Source: Sanguibacter inulinus
GTDB lineage: Bacteria > Actinomycetota > Actinomycetes > Actinomycetales > Cellulomonadaceae
Reading direction: 5' to 3'
Length of the DNA stretch: 50,081 nucleotides
NCBI RefSeq assembly: GCF_013415325.1
Contig: NZ_JACBYE010000031.1
Location: forward strand, 1 to 50,081
Part shown: positions 18,604 through 43,263 of the stretch, piece by piece
Position numbering within the stretch: position 1 is the stretch's first letter
How the letters are laid out: each line of letters opens with the position of its first letter
Program-made: the position numbers and the translations under genes
The notes under the pieces: model-generated
The model's input: only the letters and a program-made list of their open reading frames with translations
Databases searched by the model: none
What the model was told of the DNA's origin: nothing

Positions 18604-18639
18604 GGCTCTACTGTACGGCGGTGCACGACGGGCTGTCAG
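18604..18639 (-). promoter_or_regulatory. Promoter of the cupredoxin gene, inside the oxidoreductase 3' end
   Basis: On the minus strand CTGACA (18639-18634), an 18-base spacer and TACAGT (18615-18610) make a good housekeeping promoter; start would fall on the GTG at 18603. The TGA inside the -35 box is the stop codon of the upstream oxidoreductase gene. Confidence 0.6.
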
Positions 18640-19808
18640 ACGGCCCAGGGGGCGCCGGCCGCCGCGAAGGTCTGAGACCGGGCTGCCACCCGCTCGCACC
18701 ACTCCTCGACCTCCGTGACGACGGGGCGCCTGTCGCCGCCCTCGCCGACCCAGCGGACCAGGTCCTCCGGGACCCGTCGCGGCGCGGGAGCCGAGCGGAC
18801 CGCCTCGACGACCTGCGTGAAGGCGCCCGCCGCGTCGAGGGAGCACAGCAGCTCGCGCTCGGCACGGTGCTCGCGGACGTCCAGCAGGTCGTCGAGCAAC
18901 GGCACGCGGTCACCCTGGACGAACCGCACGCCCTCGGGCAGCTGCACCTCGACGCGGTCGGTCTCGTAGTAGAGCACCACCCGACCGAGGGTGCCGTAGA
19001 CCGTGATGCGCGACGGCGTGCGGACCGGGGCGCACAGGCTCAGCCCGAAGCCGAAGGTCACGCCGCTCGTCGCGACCACGCGGACCGAGGAGGTGTCGTC
19101 GGCCTCGATCGGGTTGGCATGGAAGAGGTCGACCTCGACCTCCGCGACGTCATCGGTACGACGGACACCGCCGACCCGCAGCGCCGTGGCGACGGCGTGC
19201 GCGAGCGGGTTGGTGACGACGCCGTCGACCACCTCGACGCCGTCCAGGACGCGTCGCCCGGCCCACGGGGCGCGTGCCCAGTAGCTCGCGGGGCGGGTCC
19301 ACGTGCCGACGGTCCCGACGCTGACGACCTCACCGATCTCGCCCGAGGCGACGATGCGCTCGACCTCGGCGACGGCTGTCGAGCCGAAGGTCTGGAACCC
19401 GACCTGGCACAGCTGCCCGGTCTCCTCGACCAGCCTGAGGAGCGTGGCGTGGTCGGCGGCCGACGGGACCGGGGGCTTCTCGAGCATGACGTCGCAACCG
19501 GCCCGCAGCGCCACCTCGGTGATAGGCAGATGGGTGTGGATCGGGGTGGAGACGATCACGACGTCCGGGCGGACGGCCGGGTCCTCGCTCGCGAGGTTCT
19601 CCTCGAGGGTGCGGAACCACGGCGTGCTGTCGGGGAGGTCGTCGAGGCCGGCGGGGTCGTCGGGGGAGACCACGGCGCCGAGCCGCACGCGGCCCTGCGC
19701 GGTGAGGGCTGCGAGGCGCGCCCTGTACGTGGCACCGAAGCCGCGCGGGCCGACGAGGGTGACGGTGTGGACGACGGTGGCGTCGTGCCGGGGAGTCGCG
19801 GTGCTCAT
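18636..19808 (-). CDS. Gfo/Idh/MocA family oxidoreductase
   Basis: A 390-residue NAD(P)-dependent sugar oxidoreductase. Rossmann domain at residues 10-140: TLVGPRGFGATYRARL dinucleotide loop, VVIVSTPIHTHLPI and the EKPP motif (VMLEKPPVPSAADH) carrying the conserved Lys. The C-terminal GFO_IDH_MocA_C-type domain follows with VTNPLAHAVATAL. It is last of a two-gene unit after the DUF6807 gene, whose stop lies 2 bases before this ATG; a GGGAGG sits 9 bases upstream of 19808, favouring this over the ATG at 19817. Substrate unknown; partnership with DUF6807 points to a sugar acid or keto-sugar pathway (inference). Confidence 0.85.
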   Translation of the reverse strand: MSTATPRHDATVVHTVTLVGPRGFGATYRARLAALTAQGRVRLGAVVSPDDPAGLDDLPDSTPWFRTLEENLASEDPAVRPDVVIVSTPIHTHLPITEVALRAGCDVMLEKPPVPSAADHATLLRLVEETGQLCQVGFQTFGSTAVAEVERIVASGEIGEVVSVGTVGTWTRPASYWARAPWAGRRVLDGVEVVDGVVTNPLAHAVATALRVGGVRRTDDVAEVEVDLFHANPIEADDTSSVRVVATSGVTFGFGLSLCAPVRTPSRITVYGTLGRVVLYYETDRVEVQLPEGVRFVQGDRVPLLDDLLDVREHRAERELLCSLDAAGAFTQVVEAVRSAPAPRRVPEDLVRWVGEGGDRRPVVTEVEEWCERVAARSQTFAAAGAPWAV

Positions 19809-19810
19809 GG

Positions 19811-20803
19811 TCAGCATCCTCCCGCGAGGGCCTGGTCTGCGCGGGCGACGAGCTCGGGGACGGCGTGGGGCTCGACGGGGCCGTCAACCAGGACGGCGAC
19901 GAGCTCGAGCGTCAGCTGACGGCCGCGTGGCACGCTCACTCGCTCCGACCATGCCGCGGCCGGGCCTGCTCCGTCGTACTCGGAGGCGCGCAGGAACCAC
20001 GGTCGGCGGTCGGTGTCCGGCTGGACGAGCACGAGGGTCGTGGTGACCGCCTCGGTGCTCTGCACGAAGGCCACCCAGCGCGACGTCGAGCCGTGGGCGA
20101 CCTCCTCGCCGGTGCCGTCCTCGGAGAGCACGACGGTGACGTCCGCGTCGCCCAGGCGCCAGAACAGACCGCCGTACCCAGCGCCGGGGCGTCCGTTGGT
20201 CGCGGGGCTGCCGAGGCTGAGGTCGCGGACGTCGGCGCGCAGCGTGCTGGTCCAGCGGAGCGTCCACGCGTCGCCGAGGGTGCGTGCGGTGAGCGTCCTG
20301 ACCTCGTGCAGGACGGGCGCGTCGTGCTCGTCGTCCCAGGTGAGCAGCTGGACGACGTCGGCACCGGCACGCTCGCGCTCGTCGTCGGTCGAGGGGATGC
20401 GGGTCTCGGTGACCCGCTGGCGACCGTGGTTGGTGAGCAGCGTCGACCCCTGGTCGCGCACAAAGGTGCGACCGCCCCAGAACGAGGTGCCGTCGACGTC
20501 CGGCAGCGCTGCCGAGAGCCCGAGGTGGTGCAGGTGGTCTGCGGGTGCGAGGTCGGTGAGCACTGTGCCGCCGAGCGTCCGGACCGGGTGCAGGAAGGGG
20601 CGGGGGGAGTGCACCCTGTCGACGGTCGAGCCGTGGTCGTAGCGCGCGAGCTCTGCTCCGGCGAGCGTCAGGGTGGTCGCGCCGCGCGTCGGACGCCAGG
20701 TCCCCGCGGCGGGGTCGGCGGTCGCGGTGGCGCGGGCCGTGCTGCTGGTGCTGCCGGGGCTGGCTGTGGCGACGGTACCGCCGGGCTCGATCGTGGGACT
20801 CAT
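19811..20803 (-). CDS. DUF6807 (PmoA-like) family protein
   Basis: A 330-residue protein of the DUF6807 family (PF14100, earlier labelled PmoA although unrelated to particulate methane monooxygenase). After a low-complexity Ser/Thr/Ala N-terminus, a beta-rich core shows FLHPVRTLGGTVLTDL, DHLHHLGLSAALPDV, GTSFWGGRTFV, NHGRQRV and GAGYGGLFWRL. The clustered His/Asp residues in HPVRT, DHLHH and NHG look like an active or metal site. No signal peptide. Family function is not established; it is frequently seen with Gfo/Idh/MocA enzymes, as here. The gene forms an operon with the oxidoreductase and is about 37 percent similar by eye to the C-terminal half of the next gene. Confidence 0.8.
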   Translation of the reverse strand: MSPTIEPGGTVATASPGSTSSTARATATADPAAGTWRPTRGATTLTLAGAELARYDHGSTVDRVHSPRPFLHPVRTLGGTVLTDLAPADHLHHLGLSAALPDVDGTSFWGGRTFVRDQGSTLLTNHGRQRVTETRIPSTDDERERAGADVVQLLTWDDEHDAPVLHEVRTLTARTLGDAWTLRWTSTLRADVRDLSLGSPATNGRPGAGYGGLFWRLGDADVTVVLSEDGTGEEVAHGSTSRWVAFVQSTEAVTTTLVLVQPDTDRRPWFLRASEYDGAGPAAAWSERVSVPRGRQLTLELVAVLVDGPVEPHAVPELVARADQALAGGC

Positions 20804-20852: not shown

Positions 20853-20866
20853 AGAAACCGGTTTCT
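20853..20866. promoter_or_regulatory. LacI-type operator, perfect copy
   Basis: AGAAACCGGTTTCT is a perfect 14-base palindrome with the central CG typical of LacI-family operators. It lies 50 bases upstream of the DUF6807 gene and 53 bases downstream of the LacI-DUF6807 fusion gene. Best copy of a six-member set in this window. Confidence 0.8.
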
Positions 20867-20918: not shown

Positions 20919-22976
20919 TCAGACGGCCAGCACGCGCTCCGCGAGCTCGTCACCCTCGTCGGGGAGGATGCGCCTGTCGAGCATGAGCCCGACGAGGTCG
21001 AGGCGCAGCGACCGGCCGGACTCGACCCTGAGTGCCGTGTCCCAGGCGAGGGCCGGTCCGGCTCCGGGGAAGGTCGCGGCCCGCACGAACCACGGCGCCG
21101 GGTCGCCGGGCTGGGCGAGCAGGAGCGTCGTCCAACGGTCCCCGCGCCGCTGCGTGAGCGCGAGCCACGGAGACCTGGACCCGTGGGCCGCTCGCTCGCC
21201 CTCGCCGTCGTGGCTCAGCACGTGCGTCTCGTCGGCCGTGGAGAGGCGCCAGAAGAGTCCGCCGTACCCGGCTCCAGGGCGGCCGGCAGCCCCGGGGCTC
21301 GTGATGGTGAGGTCGCCGTGGTCGGCGACGAGGTCGCTCGTCCAGCGCAGCGCCCAGCCGTCGAGGTCCGCCAGGAGCGAGCCGCGCAGGGTCCGTCGCT
21401 CGGTCAGCAGGGGATCGCCGTGCTGGTCGAGCCACGCGACGGTGTCGTCGAGCGTGGGCCCGGGGGTCTCGGCGAGCGCCGTCGCCGTCGACACCTGCTG
21501 GCCGTGGTTGGCCAGGAGCGTCGGCCCGACGTCCCTGACGAAGGTCCGCCCTCCCCAGAAGCTCGTGCCGTTGACGTCGGGGATGGCGACCGAGAAGCCG
21601 TAGTGGTGGCGGTGGTCCACGGGGCTGGTCTCGGTCATGAGCGCGCCGGCGAGCGTGCGCACGGGGTGCAGGTGCGGTCGTGGTGCGTGGACGGCGGGGA
21701 CACCCTGGCCTGTCGTGTAGCGGGCCAGCGCGACGTCGCCGCTGTCGAGCACGACGGCCTGGCCGTCGAGGCGCCACGTGAGGGTGCCGCCGGGGGCGTG
21801 GTCGGTCGTGCTGCCCGCGGTGCCTGCCGCTGCACGGGCTGCGGGGTCTGCCGTGGCGTCCTCGGTGGACCGGGTCGTGCTGGCTGGCACGGTGGGTCCC
21901 GCGTCGGCCTTCGGGCTGTCGACGAGGGACCCCTCGCTGGCGGGCAGCCGGGCCGGCACCGGTCCGGTGCTCGCCCGCACCTCGAGACGCGGCTCGAAGC
22001 GGGTGATCTCGGCTGCTGTCGCCGCGCCGGTGATGACGTCCTGGAGCCGGTGCCACGCGTGCCGCCCGAGCTCGGCCTGCGGGATCGCGAGCGTGGTGAG
22101 CGACGGCGTCGCGTACCGGGCGAGCTCGATGTCGTCGCAGCCGACGATCGAGATGTCGTCGGGCACGGCCACGCCGGTCTCGTTGAGCCTGGACAGCAGC
22201 CCGAAGGCGACGAGGTCGTTGAAGGCGACCACGGCCGTCGCGCGCGTGGCGAGGACCTCCTCGACGACGGCGTACCCGTCCCCGACGGTCGGTCCGCACT
22301 CGAGGATCGTGAGGTCGATCTCCGGGTGCACGAGGCGCGCCTCGGTGAGCCCCGCGAGCCGCCAGGAGTTGGAGGCCGAGCGGGCCGGTCCGGAGAGGTA
22401 GACGAGCCGCGTGTGGCCGAGGGAGACGAGGTGGTCGACCACTGCGCGCATGCCGCGGACGTAGTCGACGGACACGCTCGGCGCCTGCCCCTGCGGGGCC
22501 GTCCGGTTCACGAGGACGGCGGGTCCGACCTGCGGGAGCAGCTCGGCGAGGACGTCGTCGGGCATCCGCGGTGACACGAGCACGAGGGCGTCGCAGCGCT
22601 GACGGGCCTCGAGGGCGATCTCGGCCTCGTCGTCGGTGGACTCGCCGGTGTCGGCGACCAGCACCCTGTAGCCCTCGGGGGCGGCGGCGCTCGTGACTCC
22701 GCGGAGGATCTGCTGGAACATCGGGTTGCCGAGGTCGGGGACCACGAGGGCGATCGTGTTGGTCCGGCCCAGGGACAGCGAGCGGGCGACGTTGCTGGGC
22801 CTGTACCGCAGGCGGGTCGCGGCGGCCTCGACGCGCTGCGCGATGTCGGCGGCGACGGTCGCCCGGCCGTTCATCACGCGTGAGACCGTGGCCCTCGAGA
22901 CCCCTGCAGCGTCGGCGACGTCACCGATGGTGGCAGCGCCCGAGCGTCGTCGTGGTCCCGCGTCTGCTGTGGCCAT
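20919..22976 (-). CDS. LacI-family regulator fused to a DUF6807 domain
   Basis: One uninterrupted 685-residue frame with two complete modules. Residues 13-65: LacI helix-turn-helix (TIGDVADAAGVSRATVSRVMNG, then YRPSNVARSL hinge). Residues 70-335: periplasmic-binding-like effector domain (TIALVVPDLGNPMFQQIL, VAFNDLVAFGLLSRL, ISIVGCDDIELARY). Residues 340-397: Ala/Ser/Thr/Pro linker. Residues 398-680: full DUF6807 domain with HLHPVRTLAGALMTE, DHRHHYGFSVAIPDV, GTSFWGGRTFV and NHG motifs. Start ATG 22976 has CAGGAG 9 bases upstream; an ATG at 23033 lies in the operator and is rejected. A normal LacI regulator ends near 340. Probably represses its own promoter and the six AGAAACCGGTTTCT-type sites; the fused domain might sense or convert the inducer (inference). 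Confidence 0.88.
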   Translation of the reverse strand: MATADAGPRRRSGAATIGDVADAAGVSRATVSRVMNGRATVAADIAQRVEAAATRLRYRPSNVARSLSLGRTNTIALVVPDLGNPMFQQILRGVTSAAAPEGYRVLVADTGESTDDEAEIALEARQRCDALVLVSPRMPDDVLAELLPQVGPAVLVNRTAPQGQAPSVSVDYVRGMRAVVDHLVSLGHTRLVYLSGPARSASNSWRLAGLTEARLVHPEIDLTILECGPTVGDGYAVVEEVLATRATAVVAFNDLVAFGLLSRLNETGVAVPDDISIVGCDDIELARYATPSLTTLAIPQAELGRHAWHRLQDVITGAATAAEITRFEPRLEVRASTGPVPARLPASEGSLVDSPKADAGPTVPASTTRSTEDATADPAARAAAGTAGSTTDHAPGGTLTWRLDGQAVVLDSGDVALARYTTGQGVPAVHAPRPHLHPVRTLAGALMTETSPVDHRHHYGFSVAIPDVNGTSFWGGRTFVRDVGPTLLANHGQQVSTATALAETPGPTLDDTVAWLDQHGDPLLTERRTLRGSLLADLDGWALRWTSDLVADHGDLTITSPGAAGRPGAGYGGLFWRLSTADETHVLSHDGEGERAAHGSRSPWLALTQRRGDRWTTLLLAQPGDPAPWFVRAATFPGAGPALAWDTALRVESGRSLRLDLVGLMLDRRILPDEGDELAERVLAV

Positions 22977-23034: not shown

Positions 23035-23048
23035 GGAAATCGGTTCCT
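23035..23048. promoter_or_regulatory. LacI-type operator, autoregulatory copy
   Basis: GGAAATCGGTTCCT matches 11 of 14 positions of AGAAACCGGTTTCT. It lies just upstream of the fusion gene's -10 box, suggesting weak autorepression. Confidence 0.55.
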
Positions 23049-24041: not shown

Positions 24042-25736
24042 TCAGAGGGCGAGGTTCACCGAGAACGGTCCGAAGGTGGCTCGTGCGCTCGACCCTGACG
24101 CGTCGAGGGCAGGCGGCCCGACGGGACCGCAGGCGAACAGGCCGAGCTCTGCGCCGATCCAGCGGCCCTCCCTGGCTGTGAAGGTCTGCTCTGCCTCCTG
24201 CCACGGTCCCTGTCCGAGCCGCCACGAGAAGGTGACCTCGCCGTCAGCGGCCGTCGACGACCGCAGGCCGAGGGCGACCGGTGCCTCAGCCTCCACGTGC
24301 TGGTCGAGCAGGACGGGTGCGTGGAGATCGCGTTCTGCGGGGCCGGCGTCGCCCGCCTCGTCAGGGTCGACGCTCTCGCGGCACACGAGGTGCGTGACGC
24401 CGTCGGTGACCTCGATGCCGATCCAGGCGTAGGCAGTCCCGAGGACGACCAGCCCTGCTCGGTGGTCCGGCGTGCTGGAGACTCCGGGACCACCGGGGAG
24501 GCCGACCGCGAGCAGCAGGCTCGTCGTCGCCGTGTGCGGGGTGCCGGGGAGCTGTTGACCGAGCACCGCGGGGACCTCGCGCAGGGAGCCGCGGTCGACG
24601 GGCTCGATGCTCAGCCGGACGACGCCGTCTCCGTCGAGACGGGCCCAGTGCTCGGACGGGTTCGCCTGCCAGTGCCACCGCGGTGCGAGCGTGGTCGCGC
24701 GGAAGTCGTCGTCGCGGGACGGCTCGGAGGCCGCGCGGTCGACCACCGGGCCCGTGGCTCCACGCGTGGCCGAGGGGGTGAGCGGTACCTGGTCGGGACG
24801 GTCGGCCTGGTCGCCGCCGCCAGCAGGACCCGCGCTCCCCGGCATCGCGTGCGTCCGCGCAGGGTTCCCCGCGTGGGCCTCGTCGTCGGTCGTCGCGCCG
24901 ATGCGCGGCCACCCGTCTGGCTGCCACACCATCGGCTGCAGGTGCACGACCCGGCCGTAGGGGCCGCGGTCCTGGAAGTGCACGAACCAGTCGGTCCCGT
25001 CGGTCGCCTCGACCCAGGCGCCCTGGTGCGGTCCGTTGACGTCGCTCGGGCCCTGCTCGAGGACGGTCCTGTGCTCGTAGGGACCGCGGACGTCACGCGA
25101 CCTGAAGGCGTACTGCCACCCCGTCGCGACGCCGCCACCCGGCGCGAAGATCCAGTACCAGCCGTCGCGGCGGTGCATCTTCGGCCCCTCGAGCGTGCTG
25201 CACCCAGGGATCGCGTCCCCGTCGACGACAGTGCTCGACGGACCGACCACCGAGCGAAGGCCTGCGTCGACCTCGACGAGGGTCAGGCGGTTCTTCGCGC
25301 CGCTGCGGCTCTTGGCCCAGCCGTGCACCAGGTAGGTGCGGCCGTCGTCGTCCCAGAGCGGGCACGGGTCGATGATCCCTCGGCCGGCGAGCAGCAGGTG
25401 CGGGGCGCTCCACGGTCCTCGTGGATCTGTCGCCGTGAGCACGTAGATGCCGTGGTCGGGGTCTGGGTAGGTGAGGTAGAACGTCCCGTCGTGGTGGCGC
25501 AGGCTGGGTGCCCACACACCCCCGCCGTGCCGAGGCAGGCTGAAGTGGTCGAGGGGCGGGAGCGCGGACAGAGCATTGGTCACGTGCTCCCACGTCACGA
25601 GGTCACGGGAGTGCAGGACCGGGAGGCCGGGTGCGCGGTTGAAGCTCGAGGCGACGAGGTAGTAGTCGTCCCCGACCCGGACCACGTCGGGGTCGGGCCA
25701 GTCGGCGTCGAGCACGGGGTTCGTGTAGGTGGTCAT
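24042..25736 (-). CDS. Glycoside hydrolase family 43 protein
   Basis: A 564-residue enzyme without signal peptide, so it acts on imported oligosaccharides. N-terminal five-bladed beta-propeller (about 1-300): NPVLDADWPDPDVV with the general-base Asp (Asp15), GIIDPCPLWDDDGR with the pKa-setting Asp near 123, and STLEGPKMHRRDGWYW with the general-acid Glu near 183. After a Gly/Ala/Pro linker a C-terminal beta-sandwich of the GH43_C2 type runs from about 355 to 564 (PRWHWQANPSEHWARLDG to ATFGPFSV). Family members are beta-xylosidases, arabinofuranosidases or exo-galactanases; the RG-I setting suggests side-chain trimming. Divergent from the binding-protein gene with LacI-type operators between. 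Confidence 0.9.
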   Translation of the reverse strand: MTTYTNPVLDADWPDPDVVRVGDDYYLVASSFNRAPGLPVLHSRDLVTWEHVTNALSALPPLDHFSLPRHGGGVWAPSLRHHDGTFYLTYPDPDHGIYVLTATDPRGPWSAPHLLLAGRGIIDPCPLWDDDGRTYLVHGWAKSRSGAKNRLTLVEVDAGLRSVVGPSSTVVDGDAIPGCSTLEGPKMHRRDGWYWIFAPGGGVATGWQYAFRSRDVRGPYEHRTVLEQGPSDVNGPHQGAWVEATDGTDWFVHFQDRGPYGRVVHLQPMVWQPDGWPRIGATTDDEAHAGNPARTHAMPGSAGPAGGGDQADRPDQVPLTPSATRGATGPVVDRAASEPSRDDDFRATTLAPRWHWQANPSEHWARLDGDGVVRLSIEPVDRGSLREVPAVLGQQLPGTPHTATTSLLLAVGLPGGPGVSSTPDHRAGLVVLGTAYAWIGIEVTDGVTHLVCRESVDPDEAGDAGPAERDLHAPVLLDQHVEAEAPVALGLRSSTAADGEVTFSWRLGQGPWQEAEQTFTAREGRWIGAELGLFACGPVGPPALDASGSSARATFGPFSVNLAL

Positions 25737-25801: not shown

Positions 25802-25815
25802 GGAAACCGGTTCCC
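25802..25815. promoter_or_regulatory. LacI-type operator (GH43 side)
   Basis: GGAAACCGGTTCCC, 11 of 14 positions of AGAAACCGGTTTCT, 65 bases upstream of the GH43 start. Its centre is 34 bases from that of the next operator. Confidence 0.6.
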
Positions 25816-25822
25816 TGCATGG

Positions 25823-25828
25823 TAGCGT
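25823..25828 (+). promoter_or_regulatory. -10 box of the sugar-binding protein gene
   Basis: TAGCGT between the two operators. Start of transcription would fall near 25835, so the operator at 25836-25849 would cover the first transcribed bases. Confidence 0.35.
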
Positions 25829-25835
25829 CCACGAC

Positions 25836-25849
25836 AGCAACCGGTTTCT
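25836..25849. promoter_or_regulatory. LacI-type operator (binding-protein side)
   Basis: AGCAACCGGTTTCT, 13 of 14 positions of the AGAAACCGGTTTCT palindrome, 87 bases upstream of the binding-protein start. Confidence 0.7.
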
Positions 25850-25936
25850 GGTCGTGGGGACCGGTGTCATCGACCACTGACGGTCGAGATCCCTCAAGAT
25901 CCCTCAATGACGAGAGAACGACGGAAGAAGGCGACG

Positions 25937-27286
25937 ATGCGATTCACATCACGGACGCGTTTCGTGGCGGTCGGGGCCGTGGCGGCCCTCGCTGCGCTGA
26001 CGGCCTGCGGGGCGCCAGGGGGCGGCGACAAGGCCGAGGCCGGTCCCGCGGTCGACGACGTCGCGGCCTGGGGCGAGGCGACAGGCACGGTCCAGTTCTG
26101 GGATACGAACTCGACGCCGGAGCTCAAGGCGAAGTGGGCCGAGCTCATCGACAGGTTCGAAGAGGCCAACCCGGACATCACCGTCGAGTACCTGGGCATC
26201 CCGAACTCCTCGTACCTCGAGAAGGTCGACAACGCGCTGGCCTCGGGTGAGGTCCCTGACGTCCTGCTCATCGGCAACGACGTGGCCGGGTTCATCGCCC
26301 GGGACGCCTTCGAGAAGATCGACGGGCCGTTCTCCGAGTCCCTCGAGGCGTCGACCGACCCCGTGCAGGTCGCGACCGAGCGGGAGAACGCCCCGGACGG
26401 CGGTCTGTACAAGGCCCCGCTGAGCGCGATCTCCGACGTCATCTGGTACCGCACCGACTGGGTCGAGGCCGCGGGCCTCGAGCAGCCGACCTCCTACGAC
26501 GAGTTCTACGAGCTGACCGAGCAGATGACGGCCGCCGACGAGGGACGCTTCGGCTTCGCCTTCCGCGGCGGGCCCGGCTCGATGCCGCCCATGTTCTCGA
26601 TGGCCTACGGCATGGCCGGTATCGGAGAGTTCTTCACCGAGGACGGCCAGTCGACCTTCGACGACCCCGCGGTGGTCGCGGGCCTCGAGCGCTACGTGTC
26701 GCTCTTCGACTCGGTGTCGGCGCCGGCCGACCTCACCAACGACTACACGAAGATCGTGGCGGCCTTCGGCGGCGGGTCCGCATGGTCGATGCACCACAAC
26801 CTCGGCTCGTACCAGGACCACCTGCGCAACCTCGGCGGCGAGAACGTCATGGGCGTGCAGTCCTTCCCCGACGCCGACGGTGTCTCGACGGTGACCTCGC
26901 CGGGGATCTCCGGTCTGTCGATCCTCAAGGAGGCCGACAACAAGGCGGCCGGCTGGAAGTTCGTCGAGTTCATGGCGACCGAGGGCAACTCGGACTGGTC
27001 CGAGGCCATCGGCCAGGTGCCCGCCAACCTCGAGGCGCAGAAGGCGCCGTGGGTCGCCGAGTCGCAGCCCCTCGAGGCCGTCGTGGCCCTCACCGAGAAC
27101 CCTGACACCCAGTACCTGCGCCTGCCGACGTACCTGCCCGAGTACGGGTCGATCCTCAAGACCGAGATGGAGCCCGACTTCCAGGGGATCCTGCAGGGGA
27201 CCATGACGGCCCAGGAGTTCGCGACGAAGTACGCAGACCGCTTCGAGGCGTCGCTCGCCGACTACGAAGAGTTCGTGCAGAAGTAA
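25937..27286 (+). CDS. Sugar ABC transporter substrate-binding lipoprotein
   Basis: A 449-residue extracytoplasmic solute-binding protein of family 1 (CUT1 type). Signal peptide with lipobox VAALAALTACGAP; lipidated Cys at about residue 24. The mature protein starts VQFWDTNSTPELKAKWAELIDRFEEANPDITVEYLGIPN, a classical binding-protein opening, and includes DVIWYRTDWVEAAGLEQPTSYDEF. ATG at 25937 with GAAGG upstream is chosen over 25907. It is read alone from a regulated promoter and closed by a 20-bp hairpin; the permeases are on the opposite strand 2.2 kb away, and the ATPase (usually a shared MsiK-like protein) is not in the window. Confidence 0.93.
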   Translation: MRFTSRTRFVAVGAVAALAALTACGAPGGGDKAEAGPAVDDVAAWGEATGTVQFWDTNSTPELKAKWAELIDRFEEANPDITVEYLGIPNSSYLEKVDNALASGEVPDVLLIGNDVAGFIARDAFEKIDGPFSESLEASTDPVQVATERENAPDGGLYKAPLSAISDVIWYRTDWVEAAGLEQPTSYDEFYELTEQMTAADEGRFGFAFRGGPGSMPPMFSMAYGMAGIGEFFTEDGQSTFDDPAVVAGLERYVSLFDSVSAPADLTNDYTKIVAAFGGGSAWSMHHNLGSYQDHLRNLGGENVMGVQSFPDADGVSTVTSPGISGLSILKEADNKAAGWKFVEFMATEGNSDWSEAIGQVPANLEAQKAPWVAESQPLEAVVALTENPDTQYLRLPTYLPEYGSILKTEMEPDFQGILQGTMTAQEFATKYADRFEASLADYEEFVQK

Positions 27287-28327: not shown

Positions 28328-29464
28328 TCAGCGGAGCGTCCTCGACCCGAGCCGGGAGCTCAAGAAATCCCCAGCAGTCGCCTGCATGGCGGCGTCGAAC
28401 CTGTGCGGGCCGGGGACGAAGACGCCCGTGTGGGACCCGGGACCCGTGGCGAAGAGCTCGGCGAGCCGGGCGTCGGCGTCGTGCATGCCGTCCCGGGGGA
28501 ACAGGGCGTCGTCCTCCGCGGAGATCACCAGCTGGTGGTGCGCTAAACGGGCTGCGGCGACGTCGGGCCAGTCGAGCTCGCGCGCGAGGCCGGGGGTCTG
28601 CAGCAGCCACGAGTGCGCGTCGAGGTAGGCGGGGACCAACGAGTCGAAGGTCGTCATCATGCAGACGACGACACTGGCCTGGACCCGGGGGTCCAGGTGG
28701 GACAGGACGGCCGCCCGACCACCACCTCCCGAGAACCCGACGACCCCGAGCCTGCCGGCGTCGACGTCGGGCATGGACGAGAGGACGCCGAGGGCCGCGA
28801 GGTCGTCGTGCGCGACGGTCCCCGCGAAGGACGTGCCGAGCAGGCCGGCCGCCTTGGCCAGCGTCGACTCGTGCTGAGCAGCGGCGGCGTCGTAGCGCTC
28901 GGCCTCGGTCGGCACGTGACTGCGGGCCGCCCAGACCTCGTCGTGCAGGTCGAGGGTGTCGCGGGTCCGCCACGGCGGCGGGTCGAACGTGACGCGGCGC
29001 GAGCCCCAGGCGAAGGTGTCGTGGGCGAGGACGACGAAGCCGCGCCGCGCGAGGTCGGAGGCGACAGACCGACCCTCGTAGCTCGACGCGCGGACGCGCT
29101 CTGCCTCGGGCGTCGACCAGGGGGTCCGGACGAGGCGGTCGGCGCCGACCCACTTGACCCCGGCGTGGCAGTGCAGCGCGAGGACGCCCGGCAGGGGTGT
29201 GTCGGGTGAGACATCGGCAGGGGCGAGCCGCCAGGCGCGCGTCGGGGGGCCGAAGCCGGTCTGCCACTCGAGCTCGGTGCCCATCACCCCGTCGTCCTCC
29301 CAGGTGCGCACGACCCGCGCCGCGCCCACGTCGAGCGGGCGCGGCACAGGGACACCGAGCAGCCGGGCGAGGCACGCCGTGTGCGCGTCCCCGTCGAGCA
29401 GGGGAGCGGACCGCAGGTACCCGGCCCAGTCCTCGTACCCGCCGATCGCGCTCGGGCGGCTCAT
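28328..29464 (-). CDS. Alpha/beta hydrolase, acetylesterase-like
   Basis: A 378-residue cytoplasmic hydrolase. Nucleophile Ser near residue 245 lies in VGFSGGGGRAAVL (GxSxG); the acidic member is probably in LVISAEDDALFPRDG and the His in VPGPHRFDAAM. Upstream, FVVLAHDTFAWGSRR and the oxyanion-side LALHCHAGVKWVGADRL match the acetyl xylan esterase-like/abhydrolase 7 group (dienelactone-hydrolase relatives) often found in polysaccharide loci. It overlaps the permease gene by four bases (ATGA), so it belongs to the transporter operon and probably removes acyl groups from imported pectic oligosaccharides (inference). Confidence 0.78.
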   Translation of the reverse strand: MSRPSAIGGYEDWAGYLRSAPLLDGDAHTACLARLLGVPVPRPLDVGAARVVRTWEDDGVMGTELEWQTGFGPPTRAWRLAPADVSPDTPLPGVLALHCHAGVKWVGADRLVRTPWSTPEAERVRASSYEGRSVASDLARRGFVVLAHDTFAWGSRRVTFDPPPWRTRDTLDLHDEVWAARSHVPTEAERYDAAAAQHESTLAKAAGLLGTSFAGTVAHDDLAALGVLSSMPDVDAGRLGVVGFSGGGGRAAVLSHLDPRVQASVVVCMMTTFDSLVPAYLDAHSWLLQTPGLARELDWPDVAAARLAHHQLVISAEDDALFPRDGMHDADARLAELFATGPGSHTGVFVPGPHRFDAAMQATAGDFLSSRLGSRTLR

Positions 29465-30372
29465 CCCTTCACGGCGCCCGACGACATGCCCTTGACGAGG
29501 AACTTCTGCACGTAGGCGAAGACCAGCACGACGGGCACGACGGCGATCACACCGCCCGCGGCGAGCGCCCCGAAGTTCACGGCGTTCTCACCGATCATGT
29601 AGTTGAGGCCGACCGGGATCGTGAACTTGCTCTGCGAGTTGAGGAACATCAGCGCGAAGAGGAAGTTGTTCCAGGCGCCGATGAAGGCGAAGGAGCTGAT
29701 CGCGACGATGCCGGGCAGCAGGAGCGGCAGCACGTTCGCTCGGAATCCCTGGAGCCGGCTGCACCCGTCGATCCACGAAGCCTCTTCGATCTCGATCGGG
29801 ACGTTCCTGATGAAGCCCGTCATGAGCATGATCGACAGGGGCATCTGGAACACCGTGTCCGCGATGATGATGCTCCAGAGCGTGTTCGTGAGGTTGACCG
29901 ACCTGAACACCTCGAAGAGCGGGATGAGCAGCATCGCGCCCGGGACGAACTGCGTGCAGAGCAGCCCGACGAGGATGACGTTCTTGGCGCGGAAGTCGTA
30001 GCGCGCCATCGCATACCCGGCGAGCAGCGAGATGATCGTGACGCAGATGAGCACCATCAGCGCGATCATCACCGAGTTGCGGAAGAACACCGCGAAGCCC
30101 GAGCCGTTCCAGACGGTGTCGAAGTGCTCGAGCGTGAAGTCGTCACCGACGGGGAAGAGGGTGTCCGAGCCGTCCTTGCGGAAGGCGAACATCGCGATCC
30201 AGTAGAACGGGACGAGCGTGAAGAGCAGGTACAGCCCGAGCGGCAGGTAGATCGCCAGGCGGGGTGTGCGGCGGGCCTTCTCGAGGCCGCGCTGCGCGTC
30301 GGAGATCTTCTTGGCCCGTCGCTGCGGGCTCGGGGGAGTCGCGCTCGGCGCGTCCAGGGTCGCGGTGCTCAT
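29461..30372 (-). CDS. Sugar ABC transporter permease (MalG-like)
   Basis: A 303-residue permease with six transmembrane helices. The EAA loop reads EEASWIDGCSRLQGFRANVLPLLLPG (EAA then G at +4 and LP), which docks the ATPase, and the helix WNNFLFALMFL follows as usual in CUT1 inner subunits. N-terminal 35 residues are polar and cytoplasmic. Overlaps both neighbours by four bases (30369-30372 with the first permease, 29461-29464 with the esterase). Confidence 0.93.
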   Translation of the reverse strand: MSTATLDAPSATPPSPQRRAKKISDAQRGLEKARRTPRLAIYLPLGLYLLFTLVPFYWIAMFAFRKDGSDTLFPVGDDFTLEHFDTVWNGSGFAVFFRNSVMIALMVLICVTIISLLAGYAMARYDFRAKNVILVGLLCTQFVPGAMLLIPLFEVFRSVNLTNTLWSIIIADTVFQMPLSIMLMTGFIRNVPIEIEEASWIDGCSRLQGFRANVLPLLLPGIVAISSFAFIGAWNNFLFALMFLNSQSKFTIPVGLNYMIGENAVNFGALAAGGVIAVVPVVLVFAYVQKFLVKGMSSGAVKG

Positions 30373-31316
30373 GACTTCCCCTTCTGGCCCATGCGGGTGA
30401 GCCACAGGTAGGTGATCGAGAAGAGGGACAAGATGACGAAGGCGGCCATGGTCAGGGCCGACCCGTAGCCGAACTCCTTGGTGACCGTCGCGGTCTGCGC
30501 GACGTAGAGCGGCAAGGTCGTGGTGGCCCGGGCCGGGCCTCCACCGGTCAGCGTGTAGAGGAGGTCGACGTTGTTGAACTCCCACACGGAGCGCAGCAGG
30601 GTCGCGAGCACGAGGGCTGCCTTGATGTGCGGGAAGGTGATCGCCGTGAACCTGCGGACGCGCCCGGCGCCGTCGACCTCGGCGGCTTCGTAGAGGTCTC
30701 CGGAGATCGACTGGAGGTCGGCGAGGATGAGGATCGCGAAGAAGGGGACGCCGCGCCAGAGCTCTGCCAGGACGGCGGCCCAGAAGGCCGAGTCGCCGTC
30801 GGCGAGCGGGCTGACGCCGTAGGCGACGTGCCCCTGCTCGGCGAGGATGTGCGGGAAGCCGACGGTCGGGTTGTAGATGAGCAGCCAGATGGTCGTGGTG
30901 AGCACACCCGAGACGGCCCAGGGGGAGAACACCAGGGCGCGGGCGAAGGCGCGGCCGACGAAGGTCTCGTTGATGACGAGAGCGAGGGCCAGGCCGAAGA
31001 TCATCTGCAGGCCGACCTCGACGACGACCCACTTGGCGGTGAACTGGAGCGAGTCCCAGAACAGCGGGTCGCCGAGCATCTTCTCGTAGTTGCCCAGGCC
31101 CACCCAGCCGTCCATCCACGGCTTGTTGGGGTTGTACTGGTACAGGCTCGTCCGCACGACGGTGAGGATGGGGTAGGCGATGAACACCGCGATGAGCGTC
31201 AGCGTCGGGGCCAGCAGCAGGTACGGGGTCCAGCGTCCGCGGATCTTCCGCCGCAGCCGGGGAGGGCCTTCGACGTCGCCCGTGCTCTCGGGCGCCTGGT
31301 GTTCTAGCACGGCCAT
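30369..31316 (-). CDS. Sugar ABC transporter permease (MalF-like)
   Basis: A 315-residue permease with six transmembrane helices (first LLLAPTLTLIAVFIAYPIL). EAA loop: YEAAEVDGAGRVRRFTAITFPHIKA. The short N-terminus and absence of a large P2 loop place it with the CUT1 oligosaccharide permeases. First gene of the permease1-permease2-esterase operon; ATG at 31316 has GAGGAG 7 bases upstream and the LacI-type operator is 58 bases upstream. Confidence 0.93.
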   Translation of the reverse strand: MAVLEHQAPESTGDVEGPPRLRRKIRGRWTPYLLLAPTLTLIAVFIAYPILTVVRTSLYQYNPNKPWMDGWVGLGNYEKMLGDPLFWDSLQFTAKWVVVEVGLQMIFGLALALVINETFVGRAFARALVFSPWAVSGVLTTTIWLLIYNPTVGFPHILAEQGHVAYGVSPLADGDSAFWAAVLAELWRGVPFFAILILADLQSISGDLYEAAEVDGAGRVRRFTAITFPHIKAALVLATLLRSVWEFNNVDLLYTLTGGGPARATTTLPLYVAQTATVTKEFGYGSALTMAAFVILSLFSITYLWLTRMGQKGKS

Positions 31317-31373: not shown

Positions 31374-31387
31374 AGAAACCGATTTCC
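31374..31387. promoter_or_regulatory. LacI-type operator (permease operon side)
   Basis: AGAAACCGATTTCC, 12 of 14 positions of AGAAACCGGTTTCT, 57 bases upstream of the permease operon start. Confidence 0.65.
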
Positions 31388-31449
31388 CACATTCAACGCG
31401 ATGAGCGTCCGAAGGTCAACAGGCTGTGGTGATCTGGCTCACCGTGGCC

Positions 31450-31455
31450 TAGGAT
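31450..31455 (+). promoter_or_regulatory. -10 box of the oxidoreductase-uxaA operon
   Basis: TAGGAT lies six bases before the operator at 31462-31475, so the operator would span the transcription start. Confidence 0.4.
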
Positions 31456-31461
31456 GAAGCG

Positions 31462-31475
31462 AGAAACCGGTTGCT
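31462..31475. promoter_or_regulatory. LacI-type operator (oxidoreductase-uxaA side)
   Basis: AGAAACCGGTTGCT, 13 of 14 positions of the palindrome, 81 bases upstream of the oxidoreductase start. Confidence 0.7.
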
Positions 31476-31556: not shown

Positions 31557-33092
31557 ATGCCCTCCGGAACACCTGACCCGACGACCGCCCCAGCACCCAC
31601 CTCTGCTGGGGCTGCACCTACTGCTGCTGGAGCTGCTCCCGCCGCCGCTGGAGCGCCAGCGCACGCCGCCGCCGCGGCAGCCGGACCCGCGGGACCCCCC
31701 GTGCCTGCTGCGACCCGCCGCCGGCACGCCGTCGTCGGGACAGGATCCCGCGCGGGGATGTTCGTCAGGTCGATGCTCACCACCCACTCGGAGGTCGCCG
31801 AGCCCGTCGCGTGGTGCGACACCAACGACGTCCGCATGGACCTCTACGACGAGCTCCTCGCCGAGCACGGTCGCGCGCCGCTCCCGCGCTACACCCCCGA
31901 CGACTTCTCCAGGATGCTCGACGAGCAGGACCCGGACGTCGTGGTCGTGACCTCGCCCGACAGCACGCACGCGCGGTACGTCGTCGAGGCCCTCGACCGC
32001 GGCGTCGACGTGGTCTGCGAGAAGCCGATGACCATCGACGTCGACGGCCTGCGAGCCATCACCGAGGCTGCCCGCCGCTCGACGGCCGAGCTGGTCGTCA
32101 CCTTCAACTACCGTTACTCGCCCCGCAACAGCGAGGTGCGCCGCCTCGTCTCCGAGGGCGCGATCGGCGACGTCACCTCGGTGACCTTCGAGTGGTTGCT
32201 CGACACCGTCCACGGCGCCGACTACTTCCGTCGCTGGCACCGGGAGAAGGCGAGCTCGGGTGGGCTGCTCGTGCACAAGTCGACGCACCACCTCGACCTC
32301 GTCAACTGGTGGATCGACGACGTGCCCGAGGTGGTCAGCGCGCTCGGCCGGCTCGCCTTCTACGGCGAGGACAGCGCTGCAGCGCGCGGTCTGGGCCCGC
32401 GCCCGGCGCTCGGCCGCGACGGGGCGGCCGACGACCCCTTCGCCCTCGACATGGCCGCCGACGAGACCCTGCGCCCCCTGTACCTCGAGGCCGAGGAGGC
32501 CGACGGCTACGTCCGCGACCGCGACGTCTTCGGCCCCGGCATCACGATCGAGGACAACCTCGCGGTCCTCGTCGGCTACCGCGGGGGACCCGTGCTCAGC
32601 TACTCCCTCAACGCGCACAGCCCGTGGGAGGGCTACAGGGTGGGGATCAACGGCACCCGGGGCCGGCTCGAGCTCGAGGTGGTCGAGCGCACCCACGTCC
32701 ACCCCGGGTCGGCCGGGAAGATGCTCGGCCCCGACGGCAAGAAGGCGCCCGTGGTCGACCCGAGCGTCACGCACGTCGACGCCGCTGGCGGGGCCCGGGC
32801 CTTCGGCTCACGGCTCGTGCTGCAGCAGCACTGGGACGAGGCCCGCGAGCTCCCGATCCCCGAGGGGGTGGGCGCGCACGGCGGCGGCGACGCGATGCTG
32901 CTCGACGACGTGTTCCTCGGCGTCGGCGACGACCCGTTGGGCAGGCAGGCGCACTACGTCGACGGGGTCCGCAGCGTGATCGTCGGCATCGCGGCCAACG
33001 AGTCGATCCGCACCGGCGAGACCGTGCGGTTGAGCACGCTCGGCATCGAGCTCGACGCCCCCGCAGAACTGTCCGCACCGACGAGAGCCTGA
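31557..33092 (+). CDS. Gfo/Idh/MocA family oxidoreductase
   Basis: A 511-residue NAD(P)-dependent oxidoreductase. The fold begins only at residue 55 with RRRHAVVGTGSRAGMFVRS; before it is a low-complexity leader made of repeated GAAPAAAG-like units. Rossmann domain includes VVVVTSPDSTHARYVVEAL and the catalytic-lysine motif VVCEKPMTIDVDGL; the second domain contains VTFNYRYSPRNSEVRR and GGLLVHKSTHHLDLVNWWI, with the His pair typical of the active site. The length (over 450 without the leader) marks the larger subgroup seen in pectin and glycoside loci. ATG at 31557 is supported by GAGAGG; no in-frame ATG lies nearer the fold. Two bases separate it from the altronate dehydratase gene. Confidence 0.87.
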   Translation: MPSGTPDPTTAPAPTSAGAAPTAAGAAPAAAGAPAHAAAAAAGPAGPPVPAATRRRHAVVGTGSRAGMFVRSMLTTHSEVAEPVAWCDTNDVRMDLYDELLAEHGRAPLPRYTPDDFSRMLDEQDPDVVVVTSPDSTHARYVVEALDRGVDVVCEKPMTIDVDGLRAITEAARRSTAELVVTFNYRYSPRNSEVRRLVSEGAIGDVTSVTFEWLLDTVHGADYFRRWHREKASSGGLLVHKSTHHLDLVNWWIDDVPEVVSALGRLAFYGEDSAAARGLGPRPALGRDGAADDPFALDMAADETLRPLYLEAEEADGYVRDRDVFGPGITIEDNLAVLVGYRGGPVLSYSLNAHSPWEGYRVGINGTRGRLELEVVERTHVHPGSAGKMLGPDGKKAPVVDPSVTHVDAAGGARAFGSRLVLQQHWDEARELPIPEGVGAHGGGDAMLLDDVFLGVGDDPLGRQAHYVDGVRSVIVGIAANESIRTGETVRLSTLGIELDAPAELSAPTRA

Positions 33093-33094
33093 CC

Positions 33095-34669
33095 ATGACC
33101 AGCACCCTCACGCCCCGCACCGACGGACCGGGCGAGCAGCTCGCCCTCGGCGACGTCCTGCTCCTGCTCCGGGCCGGTGACGACGTCGCCGTCACCACCC
33201 GGGACCTGCGCCTCGGCACGGTGCTCGTCGACGGCGATCGACGGCTCGAGGTCCTCGACAGCGTCCCGCGCGGCCACAAGATCGCCCTCACGGACGTCGC
33301 CGTCGGCGACCAGGTCCGCAAGTACGGGCAGTCGATCGGCGTCGCGACCCGGGCTGTCGTCGCGGGGCAGCACGTGCACAGCCACAACCTCGGCATGGAC
33401 CTCGCCGAGCGCGTCCACGAGCTCGCGACGGTGCACCACGAGCTGCCCGTGCCCGCTGGGCCCAGACCGACCTTCGAGGGGTACCGGCGGGCCGGCGGGA
33501 AGGTCGGGACGCGCAACTACATCGGCATCCTCACGTCGGTGAACTGCTCGGCGAGCACGGCACGGATGATCGCCGACCAGTTCCGCGGACCTGTCCTCGA
33601 CGAGTACGAGCACGTCGACGGGGTCATGGCACTGACGCACGACTCCGGCTGCGGACTGGTGCCCGAGAACGAGGGTGCCAAGATGCTGGTCCGCACCCTC
33701 AAGGGCTACGCGGAGCACCCGAACTTCGCGGGGATCCTCGTGGTCGGGCTCGGCTGCGAGATGATCGCCGTCGGGTCGCTGCTCGACGGCCTCGACCTCT
33801 CGCCCGACACCGTGGTCCAGCACCTGACCATCCAGGAGTCGGGCGGGGTCCGGGCCACGGTCCGTCAGGGCGTCGCCGCTGTGCGCGCGATGCTCCCGGA
33901 CGTCGAGAGCCGTCGCCGCGAGACCTGCGACGTCTCCGAGCTGATCGTCGGACTCAACTGCGGAGGCTCCGACGGGTACTCGGGCATCACCGCCAACCCG
34001 GCGCTCGGGGTCGCCTCGGACCTGCTCGTCTCCTACGGCGCGACGACAGTCCTGGCAGAGACCCCCGAGGTCTTCGGCGCGGAGCACCTGCTGACGCGCC
34101 GTGCCGTGACCGAGGAGGTCGGGCGCAGGCTGCTGCGCCGGCTCGACTGGTGGCAGGACTACGCGGCGGCCGGTGGCGGCTCCCTCGACAACAACCCGTC
34201 GCCCGGCAACAAGGCGGGCGGGCTGACGACCATCCTCGAGAAGTCCCTCGGCGCCGTCGCCAAGGGCGGCCAGGCCGACCTCGTCGAGGTGTACGAGTAC
34301 GCGGAGCGCATCACGGCCTCGGGCTTCTGCTTCATGGACACCCCCGGCTACGACCCGGTGTCGGTGACAGGGCTCATCGCGGGCGGTTCGACAGTCGTCT
34401 GCTTCACGACTGGGCGTGGCTCGGTGCTGGGTGCCAAGCCCACGCCGTCGATCAAGCTCGCCACGAACAGCGAGCTCTACGCCCGCCAGGCCGAGGACAT
34501 CGACATCAACTGCGGGCGCATCGTCGACGGCACCGCGACGCTCGACGAGGTAGGACGCGAGATCTTCGACGAGATCCTTGCTGTCGCCTCGGGCAAGGAG
34601 ACGGTCTCGGAAGACCTCGACCTCGGCCAGGACGAGTTCATCCCCTGGCAGCTGGGGACGGTGACCTGA
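33095..34669 (+). CDS. uxaA: Altronate dehydratase
   Basis: A 524-residue enzyme of the UxaA/GarD family that dehydrates D-altronate to 2-keto-3-deoxygluconate in galacturonate breakdown. N-terminal SAF domain (about residues 15-95) with GHKIALTDVAVGDQVRKYGQSIG, then the catalytic domain from about 120: GYRRAGGKVGTRNYIGILTS, LTHDSGCGL, GLGCEMIA, LNCGGSDGYSGITANPA, NPSPGNKAGGLTTI and GRGSVLGAKPTPSIKLATN. These match altronate rather than galactarate dehydratase by context with UxaC; the two are not always separable. Full length, no signal peptide. Co-transcribed with the preceding oxidoreductase. Confidence 0.9.
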   Translation: MTSTLTPRTDGPGEQLALGDVLLLLRAGDDVAVTTRDLRLGTVLVDGDRRLEVLDSVPRGHKIALTDVAVGDQVRKYGQSIGVATRAVVAGQHVHSHNLGMDLAERVHELATVHHELPVPAGPRPTFEGYRRAGGKVGTRNYIGILTSVNCSASTARMIADQFRGPVLDEYEHVDGVMALTHDSGCGLVPENEGAKMLVRTLKGYAEHPNFAGILVVGLGCEMIAVGSLLDGLDLSPDTVVQHLTIQESGGVRATVRQGVAAVRAMLPDVESRRRETCDVSELIVGLNCGGSDGYSGITANPALGVASDLLVSYGATTVLAETPEVFGAEHLLTRRAVTEEVGRRLLRRLDWWQDYAAAGGGSLDNNPSPGNKAGGLTTILEKSLGAVAKGGQADLVEVYEYAERITASGFCFMDTPGYDPVSVTGLIAGGSTVVCFTTGRGSVLGAKPTPSIKLATNSELYARQAEDIDINCGRIVDGTATLDEVGREIFDEILAVASGKETVSEDLDLGQDEFIPWQLGTVT

Positions 34670-38384: not shown

Positions 38385-38492
38385 GGCCATCGTGCCTCGA
38401 TGTCGGTCGAGGGTGCAAGGGTGCTGGAGCCAGCACTGGTGCGCAGTGATCCCGGGGAAGGGGCTCAGTGAACATCTCCGGGGCAATGCCGG

Positions 38493-38522
38493 TTGACAGA
38501 AGACTGGAAACGTTTGCAGACT
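38493..38522 (+). promoter_or_regulatory. Promoter and operator of the lacI-type gene
   Basis: TTGACA (38493-38498) is a perfect -35; CAGACT (38517-38522) is a plausible -10 at 18 bases. The operator TGGAAACGTTTGCA (38505-38518) fills the spacer. Together with 38371-38384 it suggests repression of both divergent units by the adjacent regulator. Confidence 0.6.
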
Positions 38523-38617
38523 GGAGTCGGTCCTGTGCGACGGGCCGACAAGAGTCAGTCAGCGCCGGGCGCCAACCCGTGATGCCGGGCTACGAGGAGC
38601 GACGAGGAGGTCGGCTG

Positions 38618-39664
38618 ATGGCGACGGTGCGTGACGTGGCAGCGCTCGCGGGAGTCTCGATCTCGACGGTCTCCCGTGCGCTCTCCGCGCCGGGCATGGT
38701 CTCGGACGCGACGCGCGAGCGGGTCGAGCAGGCCGCGAAGAAGCTCGACTACCGCCCCAACCCGGCCGCCCGAGGTCTCCGGGTCGGCCGGACCACCACC
38801 CTCGGGCTGCTCGTCCCTGACCTCGAGAACCCGTTCTTCGCCTCGATCACCAAGGCTGTGCAGAGCCGCGCGCGGACGCACGGGTATGCCGTGCTCGTCG
38901 CGGACTCCGACGAAGACGCCGGGCAAGAGCTCGAGCTGGTCTCGATGCTCGCAGCGCAGGTCGACGGGCTCGTGCTCGCCTCGCCGCGGTCGTCGGACCT
39001 CTCGTTGCTGACCGCTGTCGACGGTCGCCCGGCCGTGCTGCTCAACCGCGAGGTCGAGGGGCTCGCCTCGCTCGTCATCGACAACGCGGGTGGTGTGCGT
39101 CAGTCGCTCAGCCACCTCAAGGCCCTCGGGCACCGCAGGGTGGCCGCCGTGAGCGGCCCGGCCGGCTCGTGGTCGGGCGCCGAGCGCCGCCGCGGGATCG
39201 AGACCGCGGGCCGTGAGACCGGCGTCGAGGTGGTCGACGTCGGGCACTTCCGTCCGACCTTCTCCGGTGGCGTCGCCGCCGCCGACCTCGTCGTAGCGAG
39301 CGGTGCCACCGCCGTGCTGACCTACAACGACCTCCAGGCGCTCGGTCTCGTCGACCGCCTGCGTCACCGCGGGCTCCAGGTCCCGCGCGACCTGTCCGTC
39401 GTCGGCTTCGACGACGTCTCGGTCGCGACCCTCGTCTCCCCGGCCCTGACCACGGTGAGCATCCCGCTCGCGGCGCTCGGCCGCGGTGCGGTCGACCGCC
39501 TCGTCGAGCAGCTCGACCGCGACACGGGAGAGAGTCGCGAGGACGACCTGGCAGACCTGACAGACCTGGCGGAGGACGAGCCGCCAGCCCGGCCGCGCCT
39601 GCCTGTCGAGCTCGTCGTCCGCGGCACGACCGCCGAACCTCGCCCTGACGGACCGCGTGCCTGA
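38618..39664 (+). CDS. LacI-family transcriptional regulator (uronate genes)
   Basis: A 348-residue repressor. Helix-turn-helix at the N-terminus: ATVRDVAALAGVSISTVSRALS, hinge YRPNPAARGLR, effector domain TLGLLVPDLENPFFASITKAVQ and TAVLTYNDLQALGLVDRL, DLSVVGFDDVSVATLVSPALTT. C-terminus is acidic and low in complexity. ATG at 38618 follows GAGGAGG by 8 bases; an in-frame ATG at 38468 lies upstream of the promoter. It sits between uxaC and the uronate reductase gene and probably responds to a uronate or its derivative (inference). Confidence 0.93.
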   Translation: MATVRDVAALAGVSISTVSRALSAPGMVSDATRERVEQAAKKLDYRPNPAARGLRVGRTTTLGLLVPDLENPFFASITKAVQSRARTHGYAVLVADSDEDAGQELELVSMLAAQVDGLVLASPRSSDLSLLTAVDGRPAVLLNREVEGLASLVIDNAGGVRQSLSHLKALGHRRVAAVSGPAGSWSGAERRRGIETAGRETGVEVVDVGHFRPTFSGGVAAADLVVASGATAVLTYNDLQALGLVDRLRHRGLQVPRDLSVVGFDDVSVATLVSPALTTVSIPLAALGRGAVDRLVEQLDRDTGESREDDLADLTDLAEDEPPARPRLPVELVVRGTTAEPRPDGPRA

Positions 39665-43095: not shown

Positions 43096-43263
43096 TTCTG
43101 TAGTTGTAGAAACACCTCGCTCCACCTCCCGCTCGGCAACAGCGCCGTGCACGCCCGTGACGAAGACCCTCGGGTGCAGACGGTGGCGCGGCCCCTGTCG
43201 CCCGGGCACAGACGCACGGGCGCCGGAACTCACCGACCGAGATTCCACGAGCAGGAGACCTTC

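Follow-up and report, generated by a model that had tools for sequence, protein, structure and literature searches.

A repressor of the LacI type and a DUF6807 domain are joined in Sanguibacter inulinus, a bacterium of soil type, in one polypeptide, which is real, conserved among relatives and no accident. The window, i.e. the whole stretch of 50,081 nucleotides that was analysed, carries the fused gene on the minus strand from 22976 to 20919, with the start ATG at 22976, an AGGAG just 5' of it, and the stop codon at 20919-20921. The first-pass annotation had described an uninterrupted 685-codon frame of LacI, linker and DUF6807 without giving its strand; the reading of the open frame, which has no internal stop, and the Pfam matches bear this out.

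All parts of the protein are encoded on the minus strand. The LacI helix-turn-helix (residues 16-61, positions 22794..22931; PF00356, 54.2 bits with a cut-off of 27) is followed by the LacI-type effector-binding domain (residues 73-342, 21951..22760; Pfam Peripla_BP_3 at 180-337, 109.2 bits), by a linker (residues 343-395, 21792..21950) and by the DUF6807 domain (residues 396-685, 20922..21791). The latter gives a full-length match to PF14100, in which residues 408-679 cover profile positions 2-269 of 270 with 205.1 bits (cut-off 27). The His-rich motifs HPVRTL, DHxHHxG (here DHRHHYG) and NHG, which had been pointed out in this domain, were all found, and the linker rich in Ala, Ser, Thr and Pro was confirmed as a stretch of about 50 residues that is disordered by prediction and variable among relatives. 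NCBIfam returned no full-length LacI model above cut-off for the fused protein and no model at all for the stand-alone DUF6807 protein of the window. In the AlphaFold model of the full-length protein (alignment of 46 sequences), the mean pLDDT was 86.3 and 477 of 685 residues reached at least 90; values below 50 were obtained for linker residues 344-393 and for residues 453-455, where the DHRHH motif begins.

A single frame kept across genomes

The search for proteins combining LacI and PF14100, which had been proposed together with the annotation, was done in a scan of named genomes that spanned all species in the collection, and the resulting loci were read by tblastn. LacI and DUF6807 share one frame at 79 of the best 80 of 555 relatives, ranked by likeness to the DUF6807 of the fused clade itself, and this figure describes the LacI-fused clade and not DUF6807 at large. 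The 80 named loci span six families by record, with genera including Cellulomonas, Isoptericola, Promicromonospora, Cellulosimicrobium, Demequina, Kribbella, Brachybacterium and Actinophytocola, and Pfam confirmed the architecture in all six named loci tested and also in L030. Among the matches listed for the family of the window, at least 80 of 221 genomes hold LacI-DUF6807 in one frame, in at least 87 copies, at least 106 hold a DUF6807, and at least 31 showed no DUF6807 outside a LacI fusion, all of these being lower bounds. A gene was counted as fused if a single match ran from residue 100 or earlier to residue 500 or later, or if one open frame contained both a LacI and a DUF6807 match; eight LacI-part matches had no DUF6807 partner among the matches listed.

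In the phylum sample, DUF6807 was detected in 21 of 396 genomes. Three of the 31 loci examined were LacI-fused, one of them the window's own, and one was Gfo-fused (a few of the matches listed had no locus to examine). Among 14 control genomes outside Actinomycetota, only Caulobacter vibrioides has DUF6807; relatives occur in four plasmid records, and none were found in viral contigs. PF14100/DUF6807 proteins formerly carried the label PmoA-like, which is also found on a plasmid record. A paper on a LacI-DUF6807 protein was not found in the open-licence PMC literature.

Both halves are under purifying selection in relatives, so that the frame goes far beyond chance: over 26-27 independent pairs, the median dN/dS was 0.109 for the helix-turn-helix, 0.105 for the effector domain and 0.161 for DUF6807, compared to 0.378 for the linker. 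The linker also shows the lowest conservation of all parts in the alignment of relatives, with a mean of 45% gaps.

It is extremely improbable that a frameshift or misassembly joins two genes here, or that an internal start gives two proteins, although some observations point in this direction. In G600, the nearest relative from the same genus (LacI part 87% identical, DUF part 73%), LacI and DUF6807 lie in different frames (locus L142), with the change in the linker just past the effector domain. One copy in G537 also has its two halves out of frame, and L116, the single exception among the 80 named loci, has a frame shift within the effector domain. The changes in G600 and G537 are either fission or sequencing error. 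Furthermore, 72 of the 79 named-locus linkers contain GTG codons, and 28 have a start codon of some kind together with a Shine-Dalgarno-like site. However, the frame is open at 79 of 80 named loci and in at least 80 family genomes, an ATG with a Shine-Dalgarno-like site is present in just 6 of the 79 linkers, and no internal start conserved among them was detected. A linker frameshift in related strains, named in the first-pass annotation as speaking against the fusion, thus exists in G600 and is absent from the 79 open loci, while its suggestion of two proteins from an internal start did not hold. Hence, assembly artefact and internal start were both rejected, with G600, one G537 copy and L116 as exceptions.

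The DUF6807 domain and its partner gene

When the DUF6807 domain was modelled alone by AlphaFold (pLDDT 92.2, pTM 0.91), a galactose-mutarotase-like beta-supersandwich fold was predicted. This assignment relies on a separate fold search and not on Foldseek alone, which gave weak results (best E 1e-4, TM 0.43, YidC among the first ten rows), and fold searches with the full-length fused protein were dominated by LacI-type proteins. By sequence, no PDB relatives of DUF6807 were found (the sole row, E 1.4, is unrelated). A protein with this predicted fold may be expected to act on carbohydrates at the anomeric carbon or close to it. No DUF6807 activity was found in the literature searched, and the label enzyme therefore rests on fold and conservation. 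An excerpt of one paper mentions a PF14100 gene that possibly shares an operon with two unusual beta-galactosidases (PMC5342196), and an excerpt of another treats DUF1080 and not DUF6807 (PMC9007349).

Conservation was compared with 22 sequences that are not LacI-fused, in which 31 DUF6807 columns are identical. All 38 fused sequences tested retain 21 of these columns, including D454, H455, H458, W474, E526, R566, Y571 and R577, and 33-37 of the 38 retain a further 8. All 22 outgroup sequences share N472, the Asn before WGG, which 37 of the 38 fused copies have exchanged, for Ser in the window; G559 is replaced in 25 and kept in 13. Since both residues are mostly replaced, the fused clade may have an altered function. 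One could go further and assume that DUF6807 has lost its enzymatic role in the fusion and serves as a second sensor or an oligomerisation module, tuning repression through a bound sugar or partner dimer, for example with two dimers on paired operators, a reading which we place on the unlikely side. The clade-wide replacement of N472 could mark a lost or changed catalysis, and mutarotase-like folds often act as sugar-binding modules. Nevertheless, most of the outgroup-invariant residues are retained, and outside the clade DUF6807 is mostly situated beside or in frame with gfo1, though lacI adjoins it in L017 and L018.

The gene gfo1 (18636..19817, minus strand; PF01408, PF22725) encodes a Gfo/Idh/MocA oxidoreductase and was recognised as the partner gene of DUF6807 by co-occurrence. 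In the family of the window, a gfo1 match at E<=1e-40 is present in 98 of 221 genomes, 94 of which also have DUF6807 (Fisher 3e-43, kinship of the genomes uncorrected); 12 of the 106 DUF6807 genomes are without such a match. In 58 of the 79 named fused loci, the gene follows downstream at no more than 174 nt from the DUF6807 match, and in the other 21 it is not directly downstream. Moreover, Gfo1 and DUF6807 share one frame in 10 family genomes, five of which also hold the LacI fusion. G601 and G602 from the window's own genus carry such fusions, as confirmed by Pfam. Single Gfo/Idh-DUF6807 frames, a naturally occurring alternative to fusion with LacI, were located in this genus at L143:1865-4096 (minus) and L144:1939-4452 (minus) and in the phylum sample at L016:373-2289 (plus). 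Elsewhere the gene order is gfo1-DUF6807, extended to gfo1-DUF6807-lacI in L017 and L018, and in L031 lacI and DUF6807 are separate, overlapping frames. Given the co-occurrence, the adjacency and both types of fusion, DUF6807 accompanies Gfo1 in this group and can be joined to Gfo1 or to the repressor.

These arrangements also bear on the rather doubtful idea that repressor and enzyme merely share chain and promoter for co-expression, with the linker as a tether and without functional coupling. DUF6807 is indeed found fused to gfo1 or encoded separately, in a gene that overlaps or adjoins its neighbour (L017, L018, L031), natural fission may exist in G600 and L031, and the linker is long, variable and disordered. 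But the LacI fusion has been kept in six named families with few exceptions, which suggests a benefit, and tying the enzyme supply to DNA occupancy would be a coupling in itself.

The window contains a stand-alone DUF6807 paralogue as well (19811..20803, minus strand; PF14100, 208 bits; start checked). In a tree of 66 DUF6807 rows, the LacI-fused copies fall in a clade of 42 rows (support 100/100), which also takes in the stand-alone and the split copy of G600, L031 and, at a loosely defined position, the stand-alone copy of the window. Three label changes are required on this tree, and one gain followed by two losses would fit. A third DUF6807 of the same genome (L001, contig 79, 977-1897, minus strand) is placed outside the LacI-fused clade, among other stand-alone copies. 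The first-pass annotation saw in the fused domain a copy of the enzyme-like domain that the regulator controls. This is correct for the window and not for most of the relatives examined, because tblastn above 60 bits revealed no second DUF6807 at any of the 80 named loci, which span 4.5-21 kb, and only fused copies were found in the 31 or more genomes mentioned above. A spare copy was hence rejected as the general case; outside the window, the regulator often carries the sole DUF6807 copy.

Candidate operators and pathway setting

The operator motif AGAAACCGGTTTCT proposed in the first-pass annotation proved to be real: the window has 6 sites at up to 3 mismatches, compared to 0.42 expected, distributed over four intergenic regions. 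A site with 3 mismatches lies 5' of the fused gene (23035..23048), and a perfect AGAAACCGGTTTCT upstream of the stand-alone DUF6807 gene (20853..20866). Two sites 34 bp apart are found between the genes for GH43 and the solute-binding protein (25802..25849), and another two, with a spacing of 88 bp, between the gene for the ABC permease and a second Gfo/Idh gene, gfo2 (31374..31475). In relatives, operators of the AACCGGTT type likewise precede the fused gene and the divergent transporter. The 80 named loci contain 126 sites at up to 2 mismatches, compared to 0.67 per shuffle (three shuffles). When up to 3 mismatches are permitted, a site is present in the 400 bp upstream of the fused gene at 64 of the 80 loci and within 2.3 kb at 77. 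Wherever a transporter gene diverges from the fused gene (68 loci), at least one site lies between the two, and at 67 of these loci at least two do. The operator is not universal, since no AACCGGTT-type site at up to 3 mismatches was found in 3.8 kb at L019 and L030, which are LacI-fused and belong to another family.

Among the 82 spacings of 20-130 bp between neighbouring sites, 74 amount to 33-35, 45-46, 87-88 or 97-99 bp, i.e. about 3.3, 4.3, 8.3 and 9.3 helical turns. Both the tandem operators in nearly all divergent loci and these preferred spacings would be consistent with two dimers brought together by a non-catalytic DUF6807. However, the class-level P value of 0.064 makes the helical phasing suggestive only, many spacings are shared by descent, and ordinary LacI regulators have tandem sites without any DUF6807, as described in parts of a survey of LacI regulons (PMC4052901). 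According to the same parts, autoregulation is common (72%), even palindromes usually have a central CG, and multiple sites occur in about 20% of the regulated operons, their distances peaking at 13, 22 and 32 bp (PMC4052901). As multi-site operons are thus familiar, the near-universal tandem sites are a step beyond the usual situation and not a new principle. We infer from sequence that the fused protein itself would bind the candidate AACCGGTT operators.

Several neighbouring genes are putative regulon members: the GH43 glycoside hydrolase (24042..25736, minus strand; PF04616) and the ABC solute-binding protein (25907..27286, plus strand; PF01547), both with the operator pair at their 5' ends, ABC permease 1 (30369..31316, minus strand; PF00528) and gfo2, a Gfo/Idh/MocA oxidoreductase (31557..33092, plus strand; PF01408, PF02894). 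ABC permease 2 (29461..30372, minus strand; PF00528) and a UxaA-like altronate/galactarate dehydratase (33095..34669, plus strand; PF20629, PF04295, PF08666) are also present, as are a glucuronate isomerase, a mannitol-dehydrogenase-family protein and a family-11 rhamnogalacturonan lyase. The RG-I setting assumed in the first-pass annotation agrees with the lyase, the altronate dehydratase and the isomerase. Pectate lyase/pectinesterase and RG lyase occur in addition at related loci; together with the GH43, dehydratase, isomerase and lyase genes of the window, this makes a regulon for pectin/RG-I oligosaccharides likely.

Some further observations concern the surroundings. The rhamnogalacturonan lyase domain, which is full-length, belongs to a 1924-codon frame at 43147-48921 (plus strand, start uncertain) that also encodes a GDSL-type esterase domain and whose product resembles multidomain proteins near several fused loci. 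A second, unfused LacI regulator is encoded at 38468-39664 (plus strand), between the glucuronate isomerase and mannitol-dehydrogenase-family genes. At L069:16532-18814 (minus strand) a luciferase-like monooxygenase is fused to a FAD-binding/berberine-bridge domain, and a related protein is encoded near the LacI-DUF6807 gene in 23 of the 80 loci by crude gene calls.

Proposed role and comparison with known systems

Our preferred reading, the simplest one to cover most of these observations and one which we consider an evenly balanced call, is that the fused protein acts as a self-regulated LacI-family repressor of the uptake and catabolism of pectin/rhamnogalacturonan-type oligosaccharides and doubles as the DUF6807 protein of this pathway. 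An imported sugar or a derivative would bind to the effector domain, the repressor would leave its operators, and the derepressed operon would yield more of the repressor-enzyme along with Gfo1. Induction would raise repressor-enzyme and dehydrogenase together, as an operator-like site precedes the fused gene and gfo1 frequently follows it. The DUF6807 half may then act on the substrate or keto-product of Gfo1 by anomer conversion, hydration/hydrolysis or binding, and the flexible linker would allow both halves to work independently. Once the sugar is exhausted, the same molecules would go back to the operators. In this scheme, the anatomy of the protein, its conservation, the operator-like sites and the partner gene come from the computations, and we infer catalysis, effector and coupling. 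Repressors are usually scarce, which suits an enzyme poorly unless it is autoregulated, and this was counted against the repressor-enzyme. It is fairly improbable that the mutarotase-fold domain converts the repressor's own inducer, or a Gfo1 product acting as inducer, such that an operator-tethered enzyme switches transcription and paired, phased operators hold two dimers.

If DUF6807 is enzyme-like, a conserved LacI branch would join sensing and catalysis in one chain, and the regulator may carry out a step in the very pathway that it regulates. The function of DUF6807 becomes testable, with the partner gfo1, the pectin/RG-I setting and the candidate operators now defined, and the genomes in which only repressor-fused DUF6807 was found represent natural test cases.

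LacI is the textbook one-component sugar switch. Like CcpA, PurR, RbsR and LacI, members of the LacI/GalR family, the fused protein has a helix-turn-helix and a periplasmic-binding-protein-like effector domain. However, these regulators normally end after the effector domain, whereas the fused protein adds about 290 C-terminal residues of DUF6807. The candidate operators match those of the family, which are even palindromes with a central CG near own and target promoters, and the usual targets, the own gene and a divergent ABC transporter, are likely targets of the fused repressor, too. Regulators of the family have two domains and a rigid domain structure, according to parts of the LacI survey (PMC4052901). 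The fused protein is thus a variant of the LacI/GalR family in which the two-domain criterion is broken by the DUF6807 match at 408-679. As a member of PF14100, the domain is full-length, above cut-off and keeps most invariant residues, but other DUF6807 proteins are stand-alone or gfo1-fused, while the window copy is joined to a repressor. With the galactose-mutarotase-like superfamily (GalM, hexose-6-phosphate mutarotase, LacZ domain 5, PL26), the fused DUF6807 shares about 10% identity, and no Pfam mutarotase or aldose 1-epimerase model matched the fused protein at E<=1e-3. PutA, BirA and NadR are bifunctional enzyme-regulators, and their folds differ from LacI-DUF6807. By analogy, the fused protein could likewise unite a repressor and a pathway enzyme in one chain.
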